In this document: positions 5,336-33,442 of the stretch, piece by piece
Layout: each line of letters begins with the position of its first letter
Position numbering within the stretch: the stretch's first letter is position 1
Source of the DNA: a virus
Virus record (IMG/VR): IMGVR_UViG_3300042326_000834
Span: 1-33,442 of that record
Reading direction: 5' to 3' (one strand)
DNA: 33,442 bases
Made by a program: the position numbers and the translations under genes
The notes under the pieces: generated by a model
What the model saw: the letters and a program-made list of their open reading frames with translations, nothing else
The model's database searches: none
What the model was told of the DNA's origin: nothing

Positions 5336-5616
5336 TGACCCCTGAGGCAAAGGTCAAAGCGAAGGTAAAGAAAGTTTTGAACGACATCGGTGCGTACTAC
5401 GCCATGCCTGCGACCGGCGGGTATGGTTCGAGCGGCGTACCGGATTTTCTGATCTGTCACCACGGCAAGTTCGTGGCGGTGGAGTGTAAGGCAAACGGTG
5501 GGAAGCCCACCGCGCTTCAATTGAAGCATCTCGATGACATCCGCAAAGCAGGTGGCATCGCATTGTTGATTGATGAAACAACCGTAGAGACCCTACGCAA
5601 GGAGTTAGAGACATGA
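5335..5616 (+). CDS. VRR-NUC domain nuclease, 93 aa
   Basis: A stand-alone VRR-NUC nuclease of the PD-(D/E)XK superfamily. The motif order is visible: helix with E4 near the start, SSGVPDFLI giving D37, then VAVECKANGGKPT giving E50-x-K52, and Q62 in the following helix. In this family these residues bind the metal and cut DNA; phage members resolve branched DNA, like the nuclease domain of FAN1. The length is typical for a phage single-domain version. The ATG overlaps the upstream stop (TGATG). Confidence 0.92.
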   Translation: MTPEAKVKAKVKKVLNDIGAYYAMPATGGYGSSGVPDFLICHHGKFVAVECKANGGKPTALQLKHLDDIRKAGGIALLIDETTVETLRKELET

Positions 5617-6263
5617 CTATTAGTGCAAAGATTCGCCGTTATCTGGCAAACGGCGCGAGTCCCGAGTACATCGCCAAGCAACTTGGCATCAGCAAGAACC
5701 GCGTCTACACGGTGCGTTGGAAGGACGCGAATAAGACGGTCAAGCCTAAGAAAGTTAAGTCGGTTGAGAAGCAGGTGCATGACATCAAGGCGGAGGCGTG
5801 GAAGGAGCGCAATCCGTGGTTTGGCGTCAACGAGCAGAAGACCGCTGCGGCACTTGCCTATCACGATGAACTTTTGAATGACGGGATTGACCCGACGTCC
5901 GACGAGTATTGGGACAAGGTGGACGCGAAGTTTGGCTCGAAGTCCAATAAGAGACAGGCCCGCCTGACACCGACTCAAGTTGAGCTTGCCAAGAAGCTTG
6001 GCATCAGTAATAAGCAGTACGCACGTGAAATCACCGCGCTGCTCGACTGTTCCAAGACCGACCCCGTGAATCACCCTGAGCACTACAAGGCCGGTGGCAT
6101 CGAGACCATCGACTTCATCGAGTCCAAAGATTTGAACTATCGTCTGGGCAACGTGGTGAAGTATGTGAGTCGTGCGGGTAAGAAGGACTCCGATCCCGTG
6201 CAGGACTTGGAGAAGGCTGCGTGGTACCTGAAGCGCGAGATCGACGCGAGGAAGGGCGCATGA
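5613..6263 (+). CDS. HTH protein with C-terminal DUF3310 domain, 216 aa
   Basis: Residues 12-36 form a helix-turn-helix ([20 protein letters not shown]), followed by a Lys-rich linker. Residues 119-145 ([20 protein letters not shown]) look like a second HTH. The C-terminus (about 150-212) is a DUF3310 domain: [20 protein letters not shown], then [14 protein letters not shown] and [17 protein letters not shown]3310 is widespread in phages and has been called a nucleotide-kinase-like protein, without a firm function. Fusion to two HTH-like segments suggests a regulatory role, which is inference. The ATG overlaps the VRR-NUC stop, and the stop overlaps the next start. Confidence 0.88.
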
Positions 6264-7365: not shown

Positions 7366-7490
7366 TCCGTGCATTGATCAACTGGTGGAAGCGTCGTGAG
7401 TACGAGGCTCACTACGCATGGAGCCGGGTGCCGCCACCTAATTGGCGGTGCAGTCGGGGCAGTATCGGACGAGGGGGGAACTACTGGTGA
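7362..7490 (+). CDS. Small basic peptide, 42 aa
   Basis: Begins at ATG overlapping the methyltransferase stop and ends with TGA overlapping the GTG start of the glycosyltransferase. The product is basic and aromatic ([20 protein letters not shown]...), with the look of a peripheral membrane helix. Function unknown; the double overlap suggests it is translated. Confidence 0.6.
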   Translation: MIRALINWWKRREYEAHYAWSRVPPPNWRCSRGSIGRGGNYW

Positions 7491-9355
7491 GCGAAGAAAC
7501 GAAACAACGCACGCTGCCTGAGTTCGCTCAGGACATCTACAAGCGAGGACTCGATGCCGCCAACACAGGTCGGTATGACGAGGCCATAGGTCTGCTTAGT
7601 AACATCCACAATGTACTTCCAGTTCTTACAGCAGCTGAGCTACAGATCGGTCGTTGCCACTGGGAGATGCACCGTTGGCAGTCGGCACGGCAGCACTTTG
7701 AGATCGCCGTCAACCTTGAGCCGAACAATGCAGATGCGGCGTGGACGATGGGTCTGCTCTCGCTGCAGATGGGTGACTTCAAGAAGGGTTGGCAGGGCTA
7801 CGAGCGACGGTGGCAGAGCAAGACGTTCAAGTCTCCGAAGCTGCACACCAAGCACCCTCAGTGGGAGCGTGGCAAGGGCTTGAAGCGACCGCTCATCTGG
7901 TGTGAACAAGGCATCGGGGATCAACTGCTCTATGCATCGCTCATCGAGGCTCTTGCCAAGGAAGTGGATGAGGTCACGGTCATGGTAGACCTGCGCCTGA
8001 CGAACCTGTTGCAGCGGGGGTGCAAAGCCGACAACGTCAAGTTCTTGACGCACAACTCTCGTGTAAAGATGTCCGAGCATGACTCGCATATCCCCATAGC
8101 CTCACTGGGTAAATACTTCATTAACTCAGTCGGGGATATCTCGACTTACACATGGGGGCATTCCTACGTCAAGGCCGACCCTGAGCGCGTGGCGAGGTTG
8201 CGTAAAGAGTATGGGTTGGGAGAGGACGATGTCGTTGTTGGACTGTCTTGGACGAGCACCGCTCCTGTCATCGGGCCACACAAGTCTGTCCCCTTGGCTG
8301 ACTTCAAGCACATCCTTGATGAGCCGGGGGTTAAGTTCATCAACCTGCAGTACGGTCAGGCGCAAGAGGAAGGGCGGGACTTTCACCCGAGCCTCATCAC
8401 CACACATATCGACACGTTCTTTGACTTGGAGAACGTCGCTGCGCTCATGGAGATATGTAACGTCATCATCTCGCCATCTTGCGCCACGGTGCATCTGGCA
8501 GGGGCGATGGGCAAGGAGGTCTTGCTGCTTGATGCCAACAAACTGTGGTATTGGAACAACCGTGCGGGTAATCAGAGTTTGTGGTACCCCGGCGTACGGA
8601 TATATCAGCGCGAGAACATGAACGCGCCGTGGGACTTGCAGTTGAAGCAGGTCAAGGAGGCACTAGAGTATGTGATGCACCGTCGAGGCTACGTAGAACC
8701 GCCGGTCGTTGTGTTCTTCCATGTGGGTGATGACATCTCTCATCCGCAGAAGATGGTCAAGTCTGTCCTGCGATACAACCCCAACGCGTACATCGTCATG
8801 TGTACAGATACAGATACACCGGATGTCATGGGGGTGTCGGACAGGTTTGAGATTGAGATAGACCGGGACGAGCTAATCCACGGTCGGATCAAGGCTTACG
8901 CTAGATTGGCGATGGAAGGTCCGGCGATATTCTTGGACACGGACATGCTTGTGCAGGGCGAGATAGACCCCGCGATGATGCTTGCCGATGCCGAGGTTGC
9001 CGTTTGTCGTAGGTCGTTCAACTGTGACGGCGGGTTCAACACAGAGTTGCGCGGGTTGGTTTTTGACGAGCACAAGGGAAAGACGATGGATCAAGTGTAT
9101 CCGTATGTCTTCTGTGCTTTGGTGACTGATGGCCCGAAGTTCTGGGAGGACTTGTTAGCGGTTTACGACACGCTCGACCCGAAGTACCGCAAGTGGTACG
9201 GCGACCAAGAGGCTCTGCGTGTCTACGCTGAGTCGAACGAAGTGGCGACGTTCCCTGAGTCCATCTACGGATGTCTGCCCGAGCACAAGACCGACGATGC
9301 GAAGATACTGCACTACAAGGGCGCAGCGCGTAAGCAGTTGTTTGAGGTGTCGTGA
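7487..9355 (+). CDS. Three-part glycosyltransferase: TPR, GT9-like, GT-A domain, 622 aa
   Basis: Residues 10-125 are TPR repeats (YKRGLDAANTGRYDEAIGLL, ARQHFEIAVNLEPNNADAAW, and GWQGYERRW). Residues 135-415 resemble the GT-B fold of heptosyltransferase-type GT9 enzymes, with CEQGIGDQLLYASLIEAL and the donor-side SPSCATVHLAGAMGKEVLLL. Residues 420-622 form a GT-A domain with FLDTDM (D484, D486) as metal-binding DxD, plus a basic HYKGAARKQ end. Two catalytic modules on one chain suggest consecutive sugar transfers. GTG at 7487 is chosen because GAGGGGGG precedes it and it overlaps the upstream stop; the frame is open back to a TTG at 7442. Targets could be host surface glycans, virion glycans or modified DNA bases; the sequence does not decide. 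Confidence 0.87.
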   Translation: MSEETKQRTLPEFAQDIYKRGLDAANTGRYDEAIGLLSNIHNVLPVLTAAELQIGRCHWEMHRWQSARQHFEIAVNLEPNNADAAWTMGLLSLQMGDFKKGWQGYERRWQSKTFKSPKLHTKHPQWERGKGLKRPLIWCEQGIGDQLLYASLIEALAKEVDEVTVMVDLRLTNLLQRGCKADNVKFLTHNSRVKMSEHDSHIPIASLGKYFINSVGDISTYTWGHSYVKADPERVARLRKEYGLGEDDVVVGLSWTSTAPVIGPHKSVPLADFKHILDEPGVKFINLQYGQAQEEGRDFHPSLITTHIDTFFDLENVAALMEICNVIISPSCATVHLAGAMGKEVLLLDANKLWYWNNRAGNQSLWYPGVRIYQRENMNAPWDLQLKQVKEALEYVMHRRGYVEPPVVVFFHVGDDISHPQKMVKSVLRYNPNAYIVMCTDTDTPDVMGVSDRFEIEIDRDELIHGRIKAYARLAMEGPAIFLDTDMLVQGEIDPAMMLADAEVAVCRRSFNCDGGFNTELRGLVFDEHKGKTMDQVYPYVFCALVTDGPKFWEDLLAVYDTLDPKYRKWYGDQEALRVYAESNEVATFPESIYGCLPEHKTDDAKILHYKGAARKQLFEVS

Positions 9356-11157: not shown

Positions 11158-11489
11158 CACGCGAGGACATCATCAGGATGGCGCGGGAGGCGGAGGATTA
11201 CGTTGATACCATTTATCAAAAAGGCGAGTATCACCCCGGATGGTTGGAAGTCTTTAATGTTCGCTTCGCCGCCCTCGTTGCTACAGCAGAGAAGCAGAAA
11301 GTCGTGGAATATATGAATTCTCGCGCTTTCGCTACAGGCCACGGCGACACCATTGAAGACTTGCTTAAAGAGATGGAGTGGCAGGTTGCCGAGCGAGAGC
11401 GTGAGGCGTGTGCGAAGTTGTGCGATGGTTGGACACACGCCGATGGGGATAGATGCGCCGCCGCCATCCGGGCAAGGGGGAGCAAATGA
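11154..11489 (+). CDS. Hypothetical phage protein, 111 aa
   Basis: ATGA overlap at the start. Mostly helical; the N-terminal MTREDIIRMAREAE and the C-terminal EREREACAKLCDGWTHADGD...CAAAIRARG are typical of a common group of short phage proteins without assigned function. The C-terminal pair of cysteines and histidine might form a metal site, though this is not certain. Its end overlaps the next gene (ATGA). Confidence 0.8.
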   Translation: MTREDIIRMAREAEDYVDTIYQKGEYHPGWLEVFNVRFAALVATAEKQKVVEYMNSRAFATGHGDTIEDLLKEMEWQVAEREREACAKLCDGWTHADGDRCAAAIRARGSK

Positions 11490-11734
11490 CCGACGAACCA
11501 CTTGACCCGAACACGCTGTACGCTGACGGCTTTGAGGACGCATTGATCGGTCTTGGGTGGCAACACACCAAACTGCTAGCCGTTTACGACTACAAAAAGT
11601 GCGTAGAGATACTGATGACACGCGAAGAGATGACGCACGAAGAGGCTATCGAGTGGATGGAGTACAACGTGGTCGGCTCATATGTCGGTGAGTACACGCC
11701 GATCTTTGTTATAGGAGGAGACGAACATGAGTGA
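11486..11734 (+). CDS. Hypothetical acidic protein, 82 aa
   Basis: Start taken at ATG 11486, which overlaps the upstream TGA and follows GGGGGAGC; the frame is open back to 11453, inside the upstream gene. The product has NTLYADGFEDALIGLGW and CVEILMTREEMTHEEAIEWM, predicted helices, and a YTPIFVIGG strand near the end. It is likely a conserved phage protein without known function. It overlaps the sigma-like gene by 8 bp, so the two may be coupled. Confidence 0.78.
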   Translation: MTDEPLDPNTLYADGFEDALIGLGWQHTKLLAVYDYKKCVEILMTREEMTHEEAIEWMEYNVVGSYVGEYTPIFVIGGDEHE

Positions 11735-12395
11735 CTATAGAGTAAAGATTTCGGTGTCGAACGCTCGCATTCGTAGGGCTGTTGAAGCGGCGGGGTATCG
11801 TTCAGTGCTTCAGATGTGCAAGTTGAATGGGTTGCAGATTACGCCCACATTCAATCTCGTGAACATGAAGCAGTCCCCGCTCACCAAGAACGGTAAGTGG
11901 CGCAAGACGGTGCTTGATCTGGCAGATACGTTAAATGTGTTGCCGGACGACTTGTTCAACGAGCGGCAGAAAGTGCTCACGCTTGGCAAGAACACCAGCA
12001 GCAGGGATGTGACTGAAAGCGAGATGCTGGCGATTGCGGAACAGTATGTGCAAGACGACAGACTTGAAGATTTACAGGACAACAGCGCGGTGCGTGAGAT
12101 TGCCGAAGAGCAAGTTACAAAACTGTTGAACAGCGAAATTCTTGATGTATTGTCTCCGCGACAACGAGAAGTGTTGGAGATGCGTTTCGGGTTTGACGGT
12201 TCTCCCGGACGTACCTTGGAAGAGATAGGTCTAAAGTTAGGTGTACATCGTGAGCGCGTTCGGCAGATTGAAGGCAAGGCTCTTCGTAGGATTCGAGCAG
12301 TTGGTGGCCACGCTGAAGAAGCGTCTCGCCGAGGTTTTGGCGAGAGATCCAAACGAATACGAGAACTTAAAGAGTTGGTATTGGAGCATGATTAA
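11727..12395 (+). CDS. Sigma-70 region 4 protein with N-terminal HTH, 222 aa
   Basis: Residues 131-191 match region 4 of primary sigma factors: ILDVLSPRQREVLEMRFGFD (4.1), TLEEIGLKLGVHRERVRQIE and GKALRRIR (4.2, the -35 reading HTH). Region 2, which binds the -10 element and melts DNA, is missing, so it is not a full sigma factor. Residues 10-80 form an XRE-like HTH (RIRRAVEAAGYRSVLQMCKL, then LADTLNVLPDDLF). The tail after 191 diverges from host sigma: where E. coli sigma70 has R603, which contacts alpha-CTD, this protein has Gly by ungapped alignment. AGGAGG precedes the ATG. It probably binds -35-type DNA or the beta-flap of host polymerase, either redirecting or blocking it. Confidence 0.9.
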   Translation: MSDYRVKISVSNARIRRAVEAAGYRSVLQMCKLNGLQITPTFNLVNMKQSPLTKNGKWRKTVLDLADTLNVLPDDLFNERQKVLTLGKNTSSRDVTESEMLAIAEQYVQDDRLEDLQDNSAVREIAEEQVTKLLNSEILDVLSPRQREVLEMRFGFDGSPGRTLEEIGLKLGVHRERVRQIEGKALRRIRAVGGHAEEASRRGFGERSKRIRELKELVLEHD

Positions 12396-12418
12396 AACAG
12401 TAAAAGGTGGGGAAGACA

Positions 12419-22137: not shown

Positions 22138-22315
22138 GTGGTGGCTTCCGTTCGAGGCTATGGAAGTAGGGGACAGCTTCTTTATCCCTACGCTTAAGCC
22201 AGCCGAGATGAGCTACATCCTCGATACACGGGCCAAAGTAGCCGGTATAAAGGTGAAGTCGTACGCAATGACCAAGGACGGTCTGCTTGGCGTACGTTGC
22301 TGGCGGATGCGTTAG
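22124..22315 (+). CDS. Small conserved-looking phage protein, 63 aa
   Basis: Start chosen at ATG 22124, overlapping the primase-helicase end by 14 bp; ATGs at 22109 and 22100 are also in frame. No clear ribosome site is seen. The product has the pattern VGDSFFIPTLKP, ILDTRAKVAGIKVKSYAM and GVRCWRM, found in many short phage proteins next to replication genes; function unknown. Its stop TAG shares four bases with the stop of the opposing giant gene (TTAG, 22312-22315). Confidence 0.78.
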   Translation: MTEPEWWLPFEAMEVGDSFFIPTLKPAEMSYILDTRAKVAGIKVKSYAMTKDGLLGVRCWRMR

Positions 22316-25300
22316 TTGTCGCTGTAAGCCTTGAAGTCTTCGACCAAGAGCTTCTTGAGGTAGTTTATCTCTATCTGGACGCTCTGTACGAAGTCTTCGC
22401 GCTGCTTCGGGGTCAGGCTCCTGTCCAACAGGATCTGCTTGCGCTCAGCCTGCAATTTGCTGAGCTGTCCCCGGCCCTTGTTGTAAGTGTCTACAAGGAT
22501 GTCGGCGTTCGGGTTCTTACGGTAGAACTTGTTAACTTGCTCCGGTGTGCCCAGATCCTCGAACGTCTTGAGCTGCTGTGAGAGCTTCTTGATGCCCTTC
22601 TCTGCCTCTGCAAACTGGCGGGCATCGTAGTTGGAGTTGCGCCCAATGAAGCTGCGCAGGAGAAACGTGTCCTTCTTGGCATCGAAGTTCTTGTCGCCCA
22701 TCAAAGTAAGAGACAGATTAAAACTGTTCTCCGCCAGATGATTCGGGGCATCAGCGTAATTGTTCAGGAGGAACGCAATAGTGTCCGGCGAAATACTAAC
22801 TTCTCCATCTGTAGTATTAAAGATTAACTCCGAAATTTCACGATGGATTTCAGAAGGCCGCGTGCTGCCTGAGAAGGCATCCGCATACTTGCCTGCACGG
22901 GAGTTGTAGATAGGGTTACCCATCGCATCGACGTTCAGGACAAGCTCAACCCATGGTCGTGCCACAGACGGCGCGGCACTATCAAGCAACCACGCACCGA
23001 AGTTCTCGGCGCTTTCAAACGGGCTGATACGCGAGGTAGGAATAGGCAGGAACGAGTCCATGCCGATCTCGACCATGTTGCCCGCAAAGTCTTTAAAGGA
23101 TGATTGTCCGTTTGCTAATGCCGCAACCTGAGCCCCGGCTGATGCCAAAGCACTGACGCCAAAGCCCCACGGGATCTGGAAGAACCCTTTATCGCCGATC
23201 ACGGGCATACGCAGATACCGCGTCCATCGGGACATATCATCCGTCGTGACCCGGTTGCGCCCCTCGTCGTCATCGCCTGCAACAGCTGCGGCCATACCAT
23301 AAAGCGCCGCACCCATCGCTACCGTGAACATAGCAGTATTACGGGCGGTCTTGGCGCGGGTCAACTGGCGCTTTTCAAACGCATCAAAAGCCTTTTCCCG
23401 GTCAACGATCTCCTGCTCCAATGCAGCGATCTTCTTTTTGTCAGGCCGCTTGTTGCCCTTGATACGCTCGATCTCTTGCGCTAAGCCCTGAGCTTCAAAC
23501 AGCTCTTGTACTTCTGGCTCAAGCCGAGCAAAGGCTTTCTGGGGCGTGGTAAAGCCCGGACGCAGAGCATCAATCGCGTCCACTGCGCCAGTAGCCGCAG
23601 GGCGGATGAACATGAACCAAGCACCCATCTCACGCCCATACTTACCGATCTTGCGGAAGTCCATCAGGCTCAGCGCAAACGCAGCAGCTTCTTTGTTGAT
23701 GTCCTCCATGACCTTGGGGTCGTTGACGTTCAGCCCCTTGTTCTTGGCTTCAGCGATGTTCTGGTTTTTGCGGACAGTGTAAGCGGCGACGCGGCTTGTC
23801 AATTCAAATGCGTCGTTATAGGCATCAACCAACCGCGTGAACAAGCTGGGGTCGTTGATGATCTTCTTGGGGCCGACCTGTGCTTTCAGCTCCTCCATCG
23901 TGTCGCTGATGTTGAACGACATGCGATACATCGTACGACCGCCGTACTTCATCATCTCCAAAGCGTCACGGTAGAACGGGCTTTCTTTAGCCAACTTGTC
24001 CAACTCTTCGTTCTTGTTATTTGACAGCAGGAACGACAACTTACCCGATTTCCACAAGCCGTTGCGGGCTACATTAGCCGCCACTGCAGTCAGGTACTCC
24101 CGAGCCTCCTTGCCACCCTCGCGGGCGCTGATCAACCCCGCGTTCGTGATGCTGTTACGGATAAAGTCCATCGGCGGGAACGCCGGGTTGTAGCGGGTGT
24201 GCAGCTGCCCAAAGAGGCTCGTCAGATTGTTACCGATCTTGACCGCCAGATTCATCTCCTTGAACGGCGTCTTGATAGCCTCAAGCACGTCAGGATTCTC
24301 GATCTTGAAGACCTCGACCGAGCCGTCCTCGTTGTAGTGCAGTACCTTGTCGCGGCCCTGCACTTGGCTGTAGTCAAAATCAGGCGCGTTACGCTCTTCA
24401 AACGAGAAGACCACAGGGCGCTTGTTCTTGGTCTTGATAACACCAAGTTTGGTCAGGTTCTTAATCGTTTGAGTTACGTCTGTACCGCGCCCCGCTCGGC
24501 TGGCGGCGAAGTAAGACTCCGCGATGCTCTGCAGTATCGGGCTGTCAAACTCTGTACGGCGTCCCTCGAAGGACTGCGGTGCCTCAGACAACTCGCCGCT
24601 CAGGTACTCGGTGTCAGTGTCAAGGGTCTTGTCAGCCCTCGGGTTGCCCTTGAACGGAGCATAGTATTTCCACCCGTAAGACTCGACGACGCGATCTACC
24701 TTGTCCGTCCAGTAGTTAGCTCGGCGGTTCAGGTTCTTGTTAAGTTCATGCAGCGCATCAAGGTCCGCAAAGACCTGATCCACGGCAGCCCTAGTTTCGG
24801 CATCAAGCTCCTCGTATTCTTCCCGAGTAGCGTCTAGTTCTTCTTGCGTATACTCAGCGCCTATGACGTTGTAGATGTCGTCATAAAAGTCCGTCGCCAT
24901 CTCAAGCGGTACTTCTTTACCCTTGGCTTCCAGCTGAGCCTTGACCGGGCTATAGCCAAGCGGGTCGGTATAGTTGGCAACAAGATACCGGATCATGCCC
25001 TGAATGGCTTCGGCTTGCTCTTTATCCTTGGCAAGGCTACGGCGCGTCTCCAATGCAGCACGGGCATCCGCCGCTGTCATAGCAGGCTCGCCCGGCAGGA
25101 ACTCCATTTTCGTGGTGTTGTTCAGCGGGACGTTGCGAAGGTACTTGGTCTCGCGGCGCTCTTGTTCGTGCAGCGCAATACGGTAGCCATCCGCCTTCTC
25201 AAGCGCATCCTTGATAGTGCCTTCCATCACGCGGGCATAAGACACTAAAGACTCGCGCAGCCGCTTGGCAACTGGCTCAACTTCCGTTGCTACGATGTAT

Positions 25301-28300
25301 GACCCACGATTAGCTGCGGCGCTAAGCTGATCATCAATGTTGTTCTTGTCATCCCCAACATACACGAGCTTGCCTATCGCCTTCAGATCGTTCTGAATCT
25401 TCTTGACCTTGCGATTAACGTTCTGGAAGTTTTTAGCAACTGTTTCGTAGTTGGTCTCAGGCGAAGTCAGTTTGTTGATGACCTGCCGAATGACGCCCGG
25501 CTGCATCATCTTGGCGCTAGCTTCCCGGCGAAGCTCACCAAGGCTCTTCTTGGGCTTCGTGGGCTTGGGCTTCTTGGGCTTGCCCGTCTTGATAGGTTCA
25601 ACAGACCGGTAGCCGGGAACTTCCACAAGCATCCGATCAGTTTGATACTTGCCATCTGCCTTGGCGAGGCTGTCCAACGCACGGATGATAGCCGCGTCAG
25701 ACTTCAGGCCAAAGACGTCCTTAACCTTCTCAAGGAAGTCACGAAGCCAACGCTTGATCTGGCCGACAATGCCCGGCGGGATACCGTAACGCCCTTGCAC
25801 GATCCGAGCACCGTTGACTGCCCAGAACTCAGACGGGTTGACGTACTGATAGAACGACTTGGGAACTTTGCCCTTCTGAATGGCGTCCAAGGCCATACCA
25901 TAAAGCGCTGCGCCCGCTTTTTTATATTCGGCGTTCTTAGCTTCGCTTGTAAAATAGTGGTAGTTCGTGATGGCGCTGAAGAAGGTTTTTTCAGCATCGG
26001 TCTTCGCGTTCTTCTTTGCTTTGGTCAGCTGCTTGACGTATGCCTTGAGGATACCCGAGCGGATATTGGCAGGCATCAACCGTTCAAGATGGTGCAGGAT
26101 CTCGTGGGTAGCGGTTTGACTATCCCCCGCACCCTTGAACAAATTGATGACGCGGCTGATGTCGTTATAAAAACCTGCCGTGCCCTCCATTTCCTTGGGT
26201 TGGTTACGGATTGAGATGCCCAAGTCTGCAACAAGCAACGGGTTCTGCCGTATGAACCACTCGGCAAGATCTATGCCTTCTTTCGATATAAAGCCGTTGC
26301 GTCGGGCATTCATGAGCCGCTCGCGGATGTAGTCCGCACCACGCTTGCGCGGCTGAACGATGCGCTGCTTCTGGGTCTTGAGCAGCAGATTACCCGTGGT
26401 CTCAGCCAACTGATCGCCGGTCAATACACCATCGTCGTAATCCCGCTTGGCCTTCCTCAACTCAACACGCAACGACGGGGCGCGTTCGCCCGCCTGCTCC
26501 GACAGAACAGGAGCGTTCTCGTTGAGTTGGGCAATGCTGAAAAACAGCTGCTGCTGTTGAGGCTCTAGTGCAGCTGTTCCCGCTCCTTCTCTCTCATCAA
26601 CCCGCTCAGCAACACCGCGAGCAGGCTCCACTCCTGCACCTTCAGGTCTTGCAGCTTCTTGTCCTGCGGGGGCTCCTCGTTGTACAGGCAGTGCAGCGCC
26701 TCTTGGAGCTGCTCCAACGTCAACTTCTCCAGCACGGGTTGATATAGGTTCACTTGTGGTCTCCGTGGTGGGAGTGGTGGGGGGCGCAGCTTTAGGTTTA
26801 ACTTGTATTGGAGTGACGCGCATATCACCAAGGATTGAATTAATCTCATTGATAACACGACGCTGTTCTTTAGAGCGAGGATTTAGTTCGTTTTTGTAAT
26901 CTCGAACAGCAGATATATATTTGCTAAATGTTTGATCAATGTCATCTTTGTTTTTCTTTATTTGTTCATTGGCTATATATGCCCACTTCCGTTCTTCAGA
27001 TCTATAGACGCTACTTGAAATGTCGTTCCAGCGATTTAAAGCATAGCTAACACCTAATTGATTAGCTTCGTAGCCTACATAACCAAGTTCTTGTAACTTA
27101 GAGATAACATTAGCCTGCTTTTCCGTTTTCCTCAGCCAATCTTTATTCTTAATAATATAGTCAAGATTTTCCTGATAGAGCAGCGCAGGACCAACATCGC
27201 CATATTGTTTTGCAAATGCCTCTTCCTCGGCAAATAACTGAGCATCTCTGCGCTTAGTCATGTCAGTCGGTGCGGAAGTTTCAAACGCAGCGGCTGGAGC
27301 AACAACAGGGGCAGTCTCAACCGCAGCCGCTTCTTTAGCCTCGACCGTCTCCGCTGCCTTCGAGGGCGTGGTAAGAGTGGTGGGGGTAGCAGTATAAGGA
27401 GCTAGCGCCTGATCACGTGAGACAGGCATAGGAATAGTTTTGGTGCCATCTTCTGACACTATTGCCGTAGGCCATTCGGCCACATAATCAAACTTTTTAG
27501 GGTCAGTTTGCTCTGACCATCGTATATCTGTTTTTAAAACTACAGGCATGGTTTCATAACCAGCCTTTTTCAACGCTAGTGCTCGGTGTCTGCCTTCATG
27601 CCCTTCTACTTTAAGCGCCCCGTCTTTCCCTGCGTAGGCCATCAAAAACGGGATAGAACTAAACTTAGTTCCTTTTTTAAGAAGTTTAGAAGTTTCAACT
27701 TCTTTAGCTTTCATGTGTCCCGGCTTAGCCATAGCCAAGAAGTCATCAATCGGTAGCTCGATCAACTTTTCCCGAGACTTGTATTCTGGTACACGCCGGG
27801 TTTCTAATTCTGAAGCGTCAAACGCAACTGAACCTGACTTAGATGAGGCAGATACTTTAGGCGCAGCCGCTTCCTTCGCCGGAGCAACAGGGGCAACAGC
27901 AGGGGCAACCTCTACCGCAGCCTTCGCCTCAATCGTCTCCGCTGCCTCCGGGGGCGTAATGGGGGGCGCAGCTTTACCTTGCTCAGGCTCGATAACATTC
28001 AACGCTGCGCGATAGCCCTTCTGAAAACCGGGGATCTGAAACGCATACGCGCCCTGCACGCTACCGGTTTCGGCTATGGTGTCCATAACTTGTTTCACAA
28101 TCTGTGAGGCTTGCTCATCTCGCATCGGCTGCGCCTTCTGTACCGCAGCTTCCATCTTCGTGACCGGGAACGTCTCGCTCATATCCTCGATCTTGTAGAC
28201 CGGGACTTCCTTAGCACCTAACTGGCGCAATGCTTCGAGGCGATGCTGCCCTTCAACGACGTTGTTGTCTTGGTCAACGATGATCCGGCTGATGTAACCT

Positions 28301-29892
28301 TCATCGCTTGCAATTTGATTAGCAAGGTTGTCAACACGTTTTACTTCATTACCTTGATCAAGAGCCACGCCGCCCTTTAACTCTTCGATTGGCACGATCT
28401 GATTGCCAACCATGCGCGGATAGCTGAAGTTAGAGTTCGCCACTTCATAAACATCATCAGACGGCGGGCGAACTTCTTTACCGGCCAACACATCAACAGT
28501 TGGGGCCGCTTCAGGTACAGCAGCTTCAGGCAATCTAATGGGTTCAGTCTGTGCCAACGCCTCGGGCGTCAAGAACGGATTGACGAGCTTAGGCCGTGCC
28601 GTCTCAACAACGGGAACCGCTTCGGGCGCAGGAGTAGGCTGCACCGCACTACGCAGCAACGGCTCGATATCTACCCGGCCCACGCCCTTCTGCGGGATGT
28701 TCTCATAGCCAAGCTTCTTGGCGATGGACTTGGCCTTGAACAGATTGAAGTTCTTGCTGCCCTCAGGGAACTGCGTGACAAACTCAGCCGCTTCCTGCAG
28801 CGCCTCCGGCGTCGGCTCCTTGGTACGCTCAAACACCATCGGCTCACGCAGGACTTTTTCTTCTTCCTTTGCCTTCGGCGCAGGCGGCGCAGCGGGTATC
28901 TGCCCGCGCAGCTCATCCAACGTCTTGGCACGGACAGGCGAAGGCCGAGCAGCACGACCCGTCTTGGGAGCCAACTGCTCCGGCGTAAGATCTTCTTCAG
29001 TATCCGGAGCCTCTTCAGTACCCGGAGCCTCAGCCTCAGGACCACGCAACCTACGGCCCAATGCAAGCTCGGCAATGGCACTGACTACGGCACCAGCGCC
29101 GCCACCCACGGTAGCAGCCTCGCCCACACCACCGAACACGGCTTCGTCAGGTGCATACACACCCTTGGCAATAAGGTTCTGAAGGACTTGGCTGCTAGCT
29201 TCCTGCAGTGCTTCTTCACCGCCCGCCTTGGCAATCCGACCCAAAGCCGGAGCAAGCCCTGCAACTTCTTTGATGGCCTCATCGCCAAAGCCAAAGCGCC
29301 GCAGGATTTTTATTGGTGCATATAGTTCAAGTGCACCGGGGATCGTACCTAGCGCGGTAGCAACACCGCGTTGACCCTCAGTAGCACCGGCTTCTTCTGC
29401 TTTCTGCCGAGCCTCACCTGCACCTGATGCAACAGTAGTAGCCGCTGCACCTGCTACACCAAGCGGACCCAAAGCTAACATGCCAAGAGTAGGTAGAGTG
29501 GAGCCAACGCCTTCGCTGATCTTGCGTACAAGCGTATCTTCATAGCCCGGCGCAGGGGCAAACGTCTCACGTACGCCGGTAGCAAATTCTTCAACAGGCT
29601 TACGCACCGCCTGCTCAGCCCCTTCAGGCAACAGCGAAGCCGCGCCAGTAATAACGGTCTCGCCCATACCGACAAGGCCGGGGATCAAGCCCTTGAAGGC
29701 TTCCTTCGTGTAGCCGCCTAGAGTGCGCTCGGGTTCAGCCGCAGCAGGGGCACGCTCAAGATGCCGGATCTGCTTGCCCTGAAAGTCACGATTAGCCCGA
29801 GCAGCAATCTGCTCAGGCGAAGCATCGTCGGGCACGCCTTGATATTCGTGCCTTGAACCGTCTGCAAAATAGACGGTTACATTTCTAGGCAT
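22312..29892 (-). CDS. Giant polyvalent virion protein, 2526 aa
   Basis: Modules in order: Ala/Gly-rich hydrophobic helices (about 60-270), possibly membrane-active; Pro/Ala-rich linkers; a ParB/sulfiredoxin-like module (495-575, IIVDQDNNVVEGQHRLEALR); a second such module (700-825, VEGHEGRHRALALKKAGY); an AT-rich-encoded helical segment (878-1030); a zinc metallopeptidase with HEILHH (H1263, E1264, H1267) and a likely third ligand E1355 in NPSEFW; long helical regions (1480-1800); an LPD38-like region (about 1885-2120, FPPMDFIRNSITNAGL...FMFIRP); and a hydrophobic helix near 2184-2206. This fits polyvalent proteins, large multi-enzyme chains packed in phage or conjugative particles and injected with DNA. 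It overlaps the upstream stop by one base (TAATG). Confidence 0.88.
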   Translation of the reverse strand: MPRNVTVYFADGSRHEYQGVPDDASPEQIAARANRDFQGKQIRHLERAPAAAEPERTLGGYTKEAFKGLIPGLVGMGETVITGAASLLPEGAEQAVRKPVEEFATGVRETFAPAPGYEDTLVRKISEGVGSTLPTLGMLALGPLGVAGAAATTVASGAGEARQKAEEAGATEGQRGVATALGTIPGALELYAPIKILRRFGFGDEAIKEVAGLAPALGRIAKAGGEEALQEASSQVLQNLIAKGVYAPDEAVFGGVGEAATVGGGAGAVVSAIAELALGRRLRGPEAEAPGTEEAPDTEEDLTPEQLAPKTGRAARPSPVRAKTLDELRGQIPAAPPAPKAKEEEKVLREPMVFERTKEPTPEALQEAAEFVTQFPEGSKNFNLFKAKSIAKKLGYENIPQKGVGRVDIEPLLRSAVQPTPAPEAVPVVETARPKLVNPFLTPEALAQTEPIRLPEAAVPEAAPTVDVLAGKEVRPPSDDVYEVANSNFSYPRMVGNQIVPIEELKGGVALDQGNEVKRVDNLANQIASDEGYISRIIVDQDNNVVEGQHRLEALRQLGAKEVPVYKIEDMSETFPVTKMEAAVQKAQPMRDEQASQIVKQVMDTIAETGSVQGAYAFQIPGFQKGYRAALNVIEPEQGKAAPPITPPEAAETIEAKAAVEVAPAVAPVAPAKEAAAPKVSASSKSGSVAFDASELETRRVPEYKSREKLIELPIDDFLAMAKPGHMKAKEVETSKLLKKGTKFSSIPFLMAYAGKDGALKVEGHEGRHRALALKKAGYETMPVVLKTDIRWSEQTDPKKFDYVAEWPTAIVSEDGTKTIPMPVSRDQALAPYTATPTTLTTPSKAAETVEAKEAAAVETAPVVAPAAAFETSAPTDMTKRRDAQLFAEEEAFAKQYGDVGPALLYQENLDYIIKNKDWLRKTEKQANVISKLQELGYVGYEANQLGVSYALNRWNDISSSVYRSEERKWAYIANEQIKKNKDDIDQTFSKYISAVRDYKNELNPRSKEQRRVINEINSILGDMRVTPIQVKPKAAPPTTPTTETTSEPISTRAGEVDVGAAPRGAALPVQRGAPAGQEAARPEGAGVEPARGVAERVDEREGAGTAALEPQQQQLFFSIAQLNENAPVLSEQAGERAPSLRVELRKAKRDYDDGVLTGDQLAETTGNLLLKTQKQRIVQPRKRGADYIRERLMNARRNGFISKEGIDLAEWFIRQNPLLVADLGISIRNQPKEMEGTAGFYNDISRVINLFKGAGDSQTATHEILHHLERLMPANIRSGILKAYVKQLTKAKKNAKTDAEKTFFSAITNYHYFTSEAKNAEYKKAGAALYGMALDAIQKGKVPKSFYQYVNPSEFWAVNGARIVQGRYGIPPGIVGQIKRWLRDFLEKVKDVFGLKSDAAIIRALDSLAKADGKYQTDRMLVEVPGYRSVEPIKTGKPKKPKPTKPKKSLGELRREASAKMMQPGVIRQVINKLTSPETNYETVAKNFQNVNRKVKKIQNDLKAIGKLVYVGDDKNNIDDQLSAAANRGSYIVATEVEPVAKRLRESLVSYARVMEGTIKDALEKADGYRIALHEQERRETKYLRNVPLNNTTKMEFLPGEPAMTAADARAALETRRSLAKDKEQAEAIQGMIRYLVANYTDPLGYSPVKAQLEAKGKEVPLEMATDFYDDIYNVIGAEYTQEELDATREEYEELDAETRAAVDQVFADLDALHELNKNLNRRANYWTDKVDRVVESYGWKYYAPFKGNPRADKTLDTDTEYLSGELSEAPQSFEGRRTEFDSPILQSIAESYFAASRAGRGTDVTQTIKNLTKLGVIKTKNKRPVVFSFEERNAPDFDYSQVQGRDKVLHYNEDGSVEVFKIENPDVLEAIKTPFKEMNLAVKIGNNLTSLFGQLHTRYNPAFPPMDFIRNSITNAGLISAREGGKEAREYLTAVAANVARNGLWKSGKLSFLLSNNKNEELDKLAKESPFYRDALEMMKYGGRTMYRMSFNISDTMEELKAQVGPKKIINDPSLFTRLVDAYNDAFELTSRVAAYTVRKNQNIAEAKNKGLNVNDPKVMEDINKEAAAFALSLMDFRKIGKYGREMGAWFMFIRPAATGAVDAIDALRPGFTTPQKAFARLEPEVQELFEAQGLAQEIERIKGNKRPDKKKIAALEQEIVDREKAFDAFEKRQLTRAKTARNTAMFTVAMGAALYGMAAAVAGDDDEGRNRVTTDDMSRWTRYLRMPVIGDKGFFQIPWGFGVSALASAGAQVAALANGQSSFKDFAGNMVEIGMDSFLPIPTSRISPFESAENFGAWLLDSAAPSVARPWVELVLNVDAMGNPIYNSRAGKYADAFSGSTRPSEIHREISELIFNTTDGEVSISPDTIAFLLNNYADAPNHLAENSFNLSLTLMGDKNFDAKKDTFLLRSFIGRNSNYDARQFAEAEKGIKKLSQQLKTFEDLGTPEQVNKFYRKNPNADILVDTYNKGRGQLSKLQAERKQILLDRSLTPKQREDFVQSVQIEINYLKKLLVEDFKAYSDN
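26758..27990. repeat. Repeated linker DNA flanking AT-rich modules in the giant gene
   Basis: Linker segments at 26758-26794, 27292-27390 and 27879-27976 resemble one another. The first and third share GGGGGGCGCAGCTTTA exactly (26779-26794, 27961-27976); the second and third both encode variants of AAETxEAK...VAPA. Between them lie two visibly AT-richer stretches (about 26795-27270 and 27400-27850), encoding the helical segment and the second ParB-like module. Confidence 0.75.
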
Positions 29893-32848: not shown

Positions 32849-33442
32849 TTAAGCGGGGAGAAGGCGGCCAGTCTTCACAGCGGGGGCTTGCCTAGCCTTG
32901 CCCGTCCGTGCCTGTCGCACTCGCGCCATCATATCGTAAAGTTTCTTCGCTCCAGCCTTGGTGGAGCCATTGCCAAGATGCGACACCACATCGGCAGGGA
33001 CGACAAACTCGCCATCAGCCAAAGCAGCGCGTTGCACACCCTTGCCACGGATCACGGCAGGGATGTCGTCGGACATGCCATCACCCGGCCCGTCAAGCAG
33101 TTTACCACCTGCCTGATACTCGTTAGGCATACCGCCACGAGCGAAGCCAAAGTTGTAATCCTCGCCCACGGCACCGCCGTAGTTAAATCTGGCGGTCCCC
33201 GCCCCTCGTCTATCACCACCCCCACGAATACGCGGAAGCTCTTCGCTCTCAATCTCGCTGAACGGAGTCATGATGGGCTGGATGTATTCACGCTCAAACT
33301 CTCGCTCACGCTCAGATTGACGAGCTGTTTCCTGACGCGCCAATTCCTGTTGACGAACCATTTCCTGTTGACGCGCCGCTTGTGCCGCAGCTTGCTCCTG
33401 TGCAGCACGAGCCAATTCCTGTTGACGAACCATTTCCTGTTG
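32849..33442 (-). CDS. Repeat-rich virion protein, 5'-truncated by the window
   Basis: The frame stays open to the window edge; the ATG at 33433 is an internal Met of QQEMVRQQELAR-type repeats, so the true start lies outside. The visible N-part is a charged Gln/Arg/Glu helix with repeats, then YIQPIMTPFSEIE, a Gly-rich segment with RFNYGGAVGED and GGMPNEYQAGG. The C-part GPGDGMSDDIPAVIRGKG, AALADGEFVVPADVVSHLGN and GAKKLYDMMARVRQARTG is a recurrent phage structural domain. Likely a virion protein of the same late operon. Confidence 0.82.
   Translation of the reverse strand, partial: QQEMVRQQELARAAQEQAAAQAARQQEMVRQQELARQETARQSEREREFEREYIQPIMTPFSEIESEELPRIRGGGDRRGAGTARFNYGGAVGEDYNFGFARGGMPNEYQAGGKLLDGPGDGMSDDIPAVIRGKGVQRAALADGEFVVPADVVSHLGNGSTKAGAKKLYDMMARVRQARTGKARQAPAVKTGRLLPA
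33339..33442. repeat. 32-bp direct repeat at the right edge
   Basis: An identical 32-bp block occurs at 33339-33370 and 33411-33442, 72 bp apart; the second copy ends exactly at the last base of the window. It encodes the QQEMVRQQELA unit of the truncated protein, with a diverged AARQ/EQAAAQ segment between the copies. Confidence 0.95.

Follow-up and report, generated by a model that had tools for sequence, protein, structure and literature searches.

XRE-sigma4, an unnamed family of phage regulators that joins a Cro/C1-type domain to primary-sigma region 4

A protein encoded by a virus record of IMG/VR (33,442 bases, analysed over its full length and hereafter called the window) carries region 4 of a primary sigma factor behind a helix-turn-helix (HTH) domain of the XRE type, and belongs to a widespread yet unnamed family of phage regulators, XRE-sigma4. 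As part of that family, the fusion is a real feature and not a one-off. Nor is it a product of chance: searches with the N-terminal half brought up 52 distinct proteins, region 4 was present in all of them, and most close pairs of family members conserve their amino acids while silent positions change. In most close pairs dN is lower than dS in all three parts of the protein, which is therefore under purifying selection in those pairs; the exceptions are a few close pairs (L062/L063) in which dN exceeds dS in region 4. The features of the gene are listed in Table 1; its start overlaps the upstream ORF (11453-11734) by 8 bases.

Table 1. Features of the XRE-sigma4 gene and of its insertion site in the window
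Feature	Position	Strand	Basis
XRE-sigma4 gene, 222 aa, ATG start	11727-12395	+	ORF, Pfam, family comparison
Ribosome-binding site AGGAGGA, strong	11713-11719	+	Sequence; located within the upstream ORF, at its end
Variable insertion site	11716-12408		Comparison: empty or GNAT-bearing in close relatives
Beta-strand 1, residues 4-9 (YRVKIS), in the conserved xDYRVxI start	11736-11753	+	AlphaFold
Cro/C1 (XRE)-type helical HTH, residues 13-76	11763-11954	+	AlphaFold, Foldseek
Putative XRE recognition helix, residues 38-45	11838-11861	+	AlphaFold; alignment: varies across the family
Beta-strand 2, residues 90-95, which completes the N-terminal domain	11994-12011	+	AlphaFold
Linker, residues 97-136	12015-12134	+	AlphaFold: residues 109-119 pLDDT<50
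Sigma-70 region 4, primary-sigma type, residues 137-192	12135-12302	+	PF04545; PDB SigA/RpoD
Recognition helix of region 4, residues 175-189, RERVRQIEGKALRRI, bearing the counterparts of sigma70 R584, E585, R586, R588, Q589 and K593	12249-12293	+	Sigma70 alignment
Basic C-terminal tail, residues 193-222, replacing sigma70 H5	12303-12392	+	Alignment, AlphaFold

A scan with the single whole protein returned no relative. The family was recovered by using the first 103 residues alone, a codon pattern composed by hand and, later, a query shortened by the first eight residues; the 52 proteins obtained with the N-terminal half fall into three clades and come from phages and proteobacterial prophage-like loci. 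The family architecture is a single chain with the xDYRVxI strand, the XRE fold and region 4, and the window protein fits it. A scan of bacterial genomes gave 14 family loci, the isolates including Stenotrophomonas acidaminiphila, Caldimonas manganoxidans, Tepidicella xavieri and Mizugakiibacter sediminis. In the tree, the window groups with 13 other virus sequences (support 99/96), nine bacterial genome loci and one virus contig make up a prophage clade of ten sequences (100/100), and 14 other virus sequences form a third group; one long-branch row stands apart from all of them. The family is rare in genomes: of those sampled, 1 among 368 further members of the class and 0 among 398 further members of the order had it. 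No isolated phage of the phage collection carried it when searched by tblastn with four members and with the N-terminal half. Several apparent matches were discarded: the human-gut ones that were opened are ordinary RpoD, those on plasmids are either normal sigma factors or a protein of 437 aa with region 4 alone in common, and the likeness to the MzaA defence sigma is confined to region 4. The architecture is covered by no Pfam, PHROG, NCBIfam or PADLOC model and is described nowhere in the literature searched. The best-named structural match over the length of the protein (E=5.6e-9), the 200-aa A0A0F7L6V6 of an uncultured marine virus, is probably a family member as judged from the models; its name, 'Sigma-70 region 3 domain protein', is an annotation label only.

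Virus records mostly have the gene in their early/replication part, close to a DNA polymerase or a PD-(D/E)XK nuclease, and the order at the bacterial loci is PD-(D/E)XK nuclease gene, XRE-sigma4, D5-type primase/helicase gene, with a ParB/methylase gene near. Directly upstream of the gene in several related phages stand homologues of a small HTH + DUF3310 protein that the window encodes at 5613-6263.

Region 4 is indeed of the primary-sigma type, as the earlier note had proposed. Pfam Sigma70_r4 (PF04545) matches residues 139-191 with 63.5 bits (E=1.2e-17, cut-off 24.1), the sole match above threshold in the Pfam search of the window protein. Among solved structures SigA/RpoD chains come closest, and among NCBIfam models those of RpoD type, with scores far under their whole-protein cut-offs. 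The sigma70 contacts R554, R562, R584, E585, R586, R588, Q589 and K593 (E. coli numbering) are all kept in the window protein. Across the family, the trio that reads the -35 element (R586/R588/Q589) is intact in 45 of 53 aligned members. The region 4 recognition helix is nearly identical to that of sigma70 in 45 of the 53, over three clades, and the XRE helix varies freely. The remaining eight, mostly of one subclade, have lost R588 and/or Q589, which indicates that -35 reading is not universal in the family. A sigma 3.2 finger sought in the linker (DDRLEDLQDN against DSHLGDFIED) did not score above shuffles for most of the 11 sequences scored and was rejected. In the relatives L027, L029, L032, L033 and L034, ORFs of 65-87 aa match only the recognition-helix part of sigma region 4 (for example MTKRFEPIPFAGMVEVDDEPEIPTDRKLFNKTQQEVADELGVSRTAVGDVEKRAMKKF); by sequence these are a possible second sigma4-like mini-regulator.

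Sigma70 region 4 contacts the beta-flap through H1, H2 and H5 (PMC2988021). H1 and H2 are recognisable in the window protein, but H5 is not recognisably conserved: clade-specific tails stand in its place across the family, in the window protein a basic stretch of 30 residues. The proposal that the protein keeps the flap-binding part of sigma is therefore only half right, holding for H1/H2 and failing for H5, and reading of -35 DNA is better supported than flap binding.

The N-terminal domain lies under the Pfam threshold in the window protein, and weak HTH_26/HTH_3 matches were obtained in 2-3 of 16 sister proteins. AlphaFold models the domain at pLDDT 93, with helices at residues 13-21, 27-34, 38-45, 60-69 and 73-76 and strands at 4-9 and 90-95. 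Since the Foldseek matches of this model are mainly Cro/C1 proteins (C.AhdI, SinR, P22 c2 and 434 Cro; TM-scores by target of ~0.6-0.7, with E above 0.1), the term 'XRE-like' given to the domain beforehand is right at the fold level, the five-helix Cro/C1 fold being present in a predicted model with weak Foldseek E-values. The XRE-type fold also lends support to the idea that the domain may supply a separate DNA address. Some local alignments cross the domain, but its fold matches are Cro/C1, and a remnant of sigma region 3 was rejected. As to the xDYRVxI start, its D, Y, R and I are invariant in a 29-row alignment, DYR[VIL] occurs in every member of a further family alignment, and the start is kept even in members recovered with queries devoid of that stretch.

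The model tentatively preferred here, built on sequence, is that of a two-headed promoter-binding phage regulator, whose XRE domain would read an operator and whose region 4 would read the -35 element, competing with or replacing the host sigma4. The XRE domain, probably dimeric with the help of the flanking strands, would find a phage-specific operator, and the tethered region 4 would read a -35-type hexamer adjoining it. Sitting at the -35, the protein would either compete with the sigma4 of the holoenzyme, so that the promoter is shut or switched, or replace the sigma4 contact. That the protein binds DNA, forms dimers and competes with host sigma4 is inferred in this scheme, as is the direction in which it regulates. 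A point against it is that isolated sigma4 binds DNA weakly, so the XRE tether would have to supply the affinity. A region 4 helix with its -35-reading residues intact in most members, combined with a varying XRE helix, is as expected for a fixed -35 target and a changing operator; the primary-sigma kinship of region 4, the XRE fold, dN below dS in most close pairs, the usual location in the early/replication module, the presence of the fusion in 52 of 52 proteins and the absence of region 2 also support the two-headed regulator. Counted against it are the loss of R588/Q589, the pairs with dN > dS in region 4, and the scarcity of sigma70-like sites, which are fewer in the window than in shuffles (3 vs 8.9; 6 vs 9.0). 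Promoter and repeat scans of the window yielded no operator candidate and no enriched -35 site.

One alternative is that the protein is a plain DNA-binding regulator, whose region 4 would have become an HTH like any other, directed at an operator of its own and unconnected with the -35 element or RNA polymerase. Two HTHs in a small protein, the eight members that lack R588 and/or Q589 and the replacement of H5 would suit such a regulator, but the near-identity of the recognition helix with that of sigma70 in 45 of 53 members, unlike the XRE helix, makes it unlikely. Another, which follows the earlier note, is that a single chain acts as a sigma appropriator, with its region 4 in the place of sigma4 on the beta-flap of the host RNA polymerase. 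Host sigma2 and sigma3 would stay and the XRE domain would swap the -35 box for a phage operator, as though AsiA and MotA were combined in one chain. The primary-sigma type of region 4 with its recognisable H1/H2 and the absence of region 2 are consistent with such an appropriator, and phage proteins that sit in the sigma4 slot are known: AsiA, P7 and gp39 (PMC7403470) and gp33 (PMC2988020). Some clade-2 members without R588 retain the fold together with a conserved extension at the C-terminus, as if protein contact outweighed -35 reading there. Yet the flap-contact helix H5 (PMC2988021) is not kept in the window protein, and the -35-reading residues, needless if the operator differs, are. The comparison with AsiA/MotA is an analogy, and a DNA-only regulator accounts for these sequence facts too. 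The appropriator is the strongest rival of the two-headed regulator, though on balance unlikely; the DNA-only regulator, and also the split sigma considered below, are less likely than it.

Region 2 (PF04542) was found neither in the protein nor in the window nor in the 32 further gene-carrying virus records, most of which are fragments and in all of which a diverged sigma2 could be missed; the same search was positive in 10 of 14 control genomes. Pfam and NCBIfam searches detected no region 2 inside the protein, which bears out the expectation that it has no -10-reading part, and, going by its sequence, the protein cannot be a complete sigma factor. In B. subtilis, SigO/RsoA is a split sigma. 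The protein might similarly supply one part of such a sigma and depend on a second, sigma2-like protein for the other, in the style of SigO/RsoA or of T4 gp55/gp33. Its missing region 2 and the T4 precedent (PMC2988020) are in keeping with this, but PF04542 was hit in 0 of 33 gene-carrying records, given that most are fragments in which a diverged sigma2 is missable. No recognisable sigma2 partner was found near the XRE-sigma4 gene, and a split sigma is highly improbable.

In several relatives (L018, L028, L043 and L058) the positions corresponding to 11715 and 12409 of the window are directly joined, and in L008, L009, L010, L012 and L013 a 144-aa GNAT acetyltransferase gene fills the site, which thus appears to be a swap site for accessory genes. 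The family was absent from 37 of 37 whole records of related phages, records that may be fragments and were searched with no internal positive control. Carriers of the same group have XRE-sigma4 elsewhere, just upstream of a homologue of window 7442-9352. Because the site is empty or GNAT-bearing in relatives and the gene has another position in carriers, XRE-sigma4 is not essential for the window phage type, in which it looks like a dispensable cassette swapped in and out. Its absence from close relatives would also fit a decayed sigma factor or a functionless fragment; the open frames, the conserved architecture and dN mostly below dS over three clades argue against decay, the least credible of the readings considered.

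Elsewhere in the window, the left end of the contig (1-211) consists of 19-nt tandem repeats that grade into 9-nt repeats (GCGGGTCAG), and the right end (33335-33442) bears a 36-nt direct repeat, 72 nt apart. Between 3007 and 4316 a ribosome-binding-site/start block, GGAGGACAAGGCATGA, is repeated at six places, before small ORFs. A 2526-aa ORF on the minus strand (22312-29892) contains a large polyvalent protein domain, LPD38.

XRE-sigma4 can be set against several known systems. With RpoD/SigA (PF04545) it has in common the region 4 sequence and the -35-reading residues, but it is devoid of regions 1, 2 and 3, has an XRE domain instead, and has H5 replaced. The five-helix fold of Cro/C1 regulators (C.AhdI, SinR, P22 c2) is predicted for it as well; it differs from them by the flanking beta-strands and the fusion to sigma region 4, and the window sequence is too distant for Pfam. 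The logic of T4 AsiA and MotA, a new address at the sigma4 position, is possibly alike. These are however two proteins, of which AsiA remodels sigma4 (PMC7403470, PMC2988021), whereas the XRE-sigma4 gene encodes sigma4 itself; none of AsiA, P7, gp39 and gp33 is built from sigma4 itself. The flap-binding sigma4 mimic gp33 of T4 likewise combines a sigma4-like part with the lack of region 2 but, unlike XRE-sigma4, has no sequence similarity to sigma and no DNA sequence recognition (PMC2988020). Ltr/RinA of Gram-positive phages are small phage transcription regulators too; they are of ~130 aa and are reported to resemble no known bacterial transcription factor (PMC13123087), whereas members of the XRE-sigma4 family have 190-240 aa and contain sigma4.

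XRE-sigma4 is thus a coherent unnamed family of three clades, from phages and from prophage-like loci of Pseudomonadota, whose members put part of sigma itself to new use as a regulator. Should the protein occupy the -35 element or the beta-flap, phages would have in it a minimal and portable means to redirect or block host transcription, and it would offer a direct test of whether sigma4 acts apart from sigma2.
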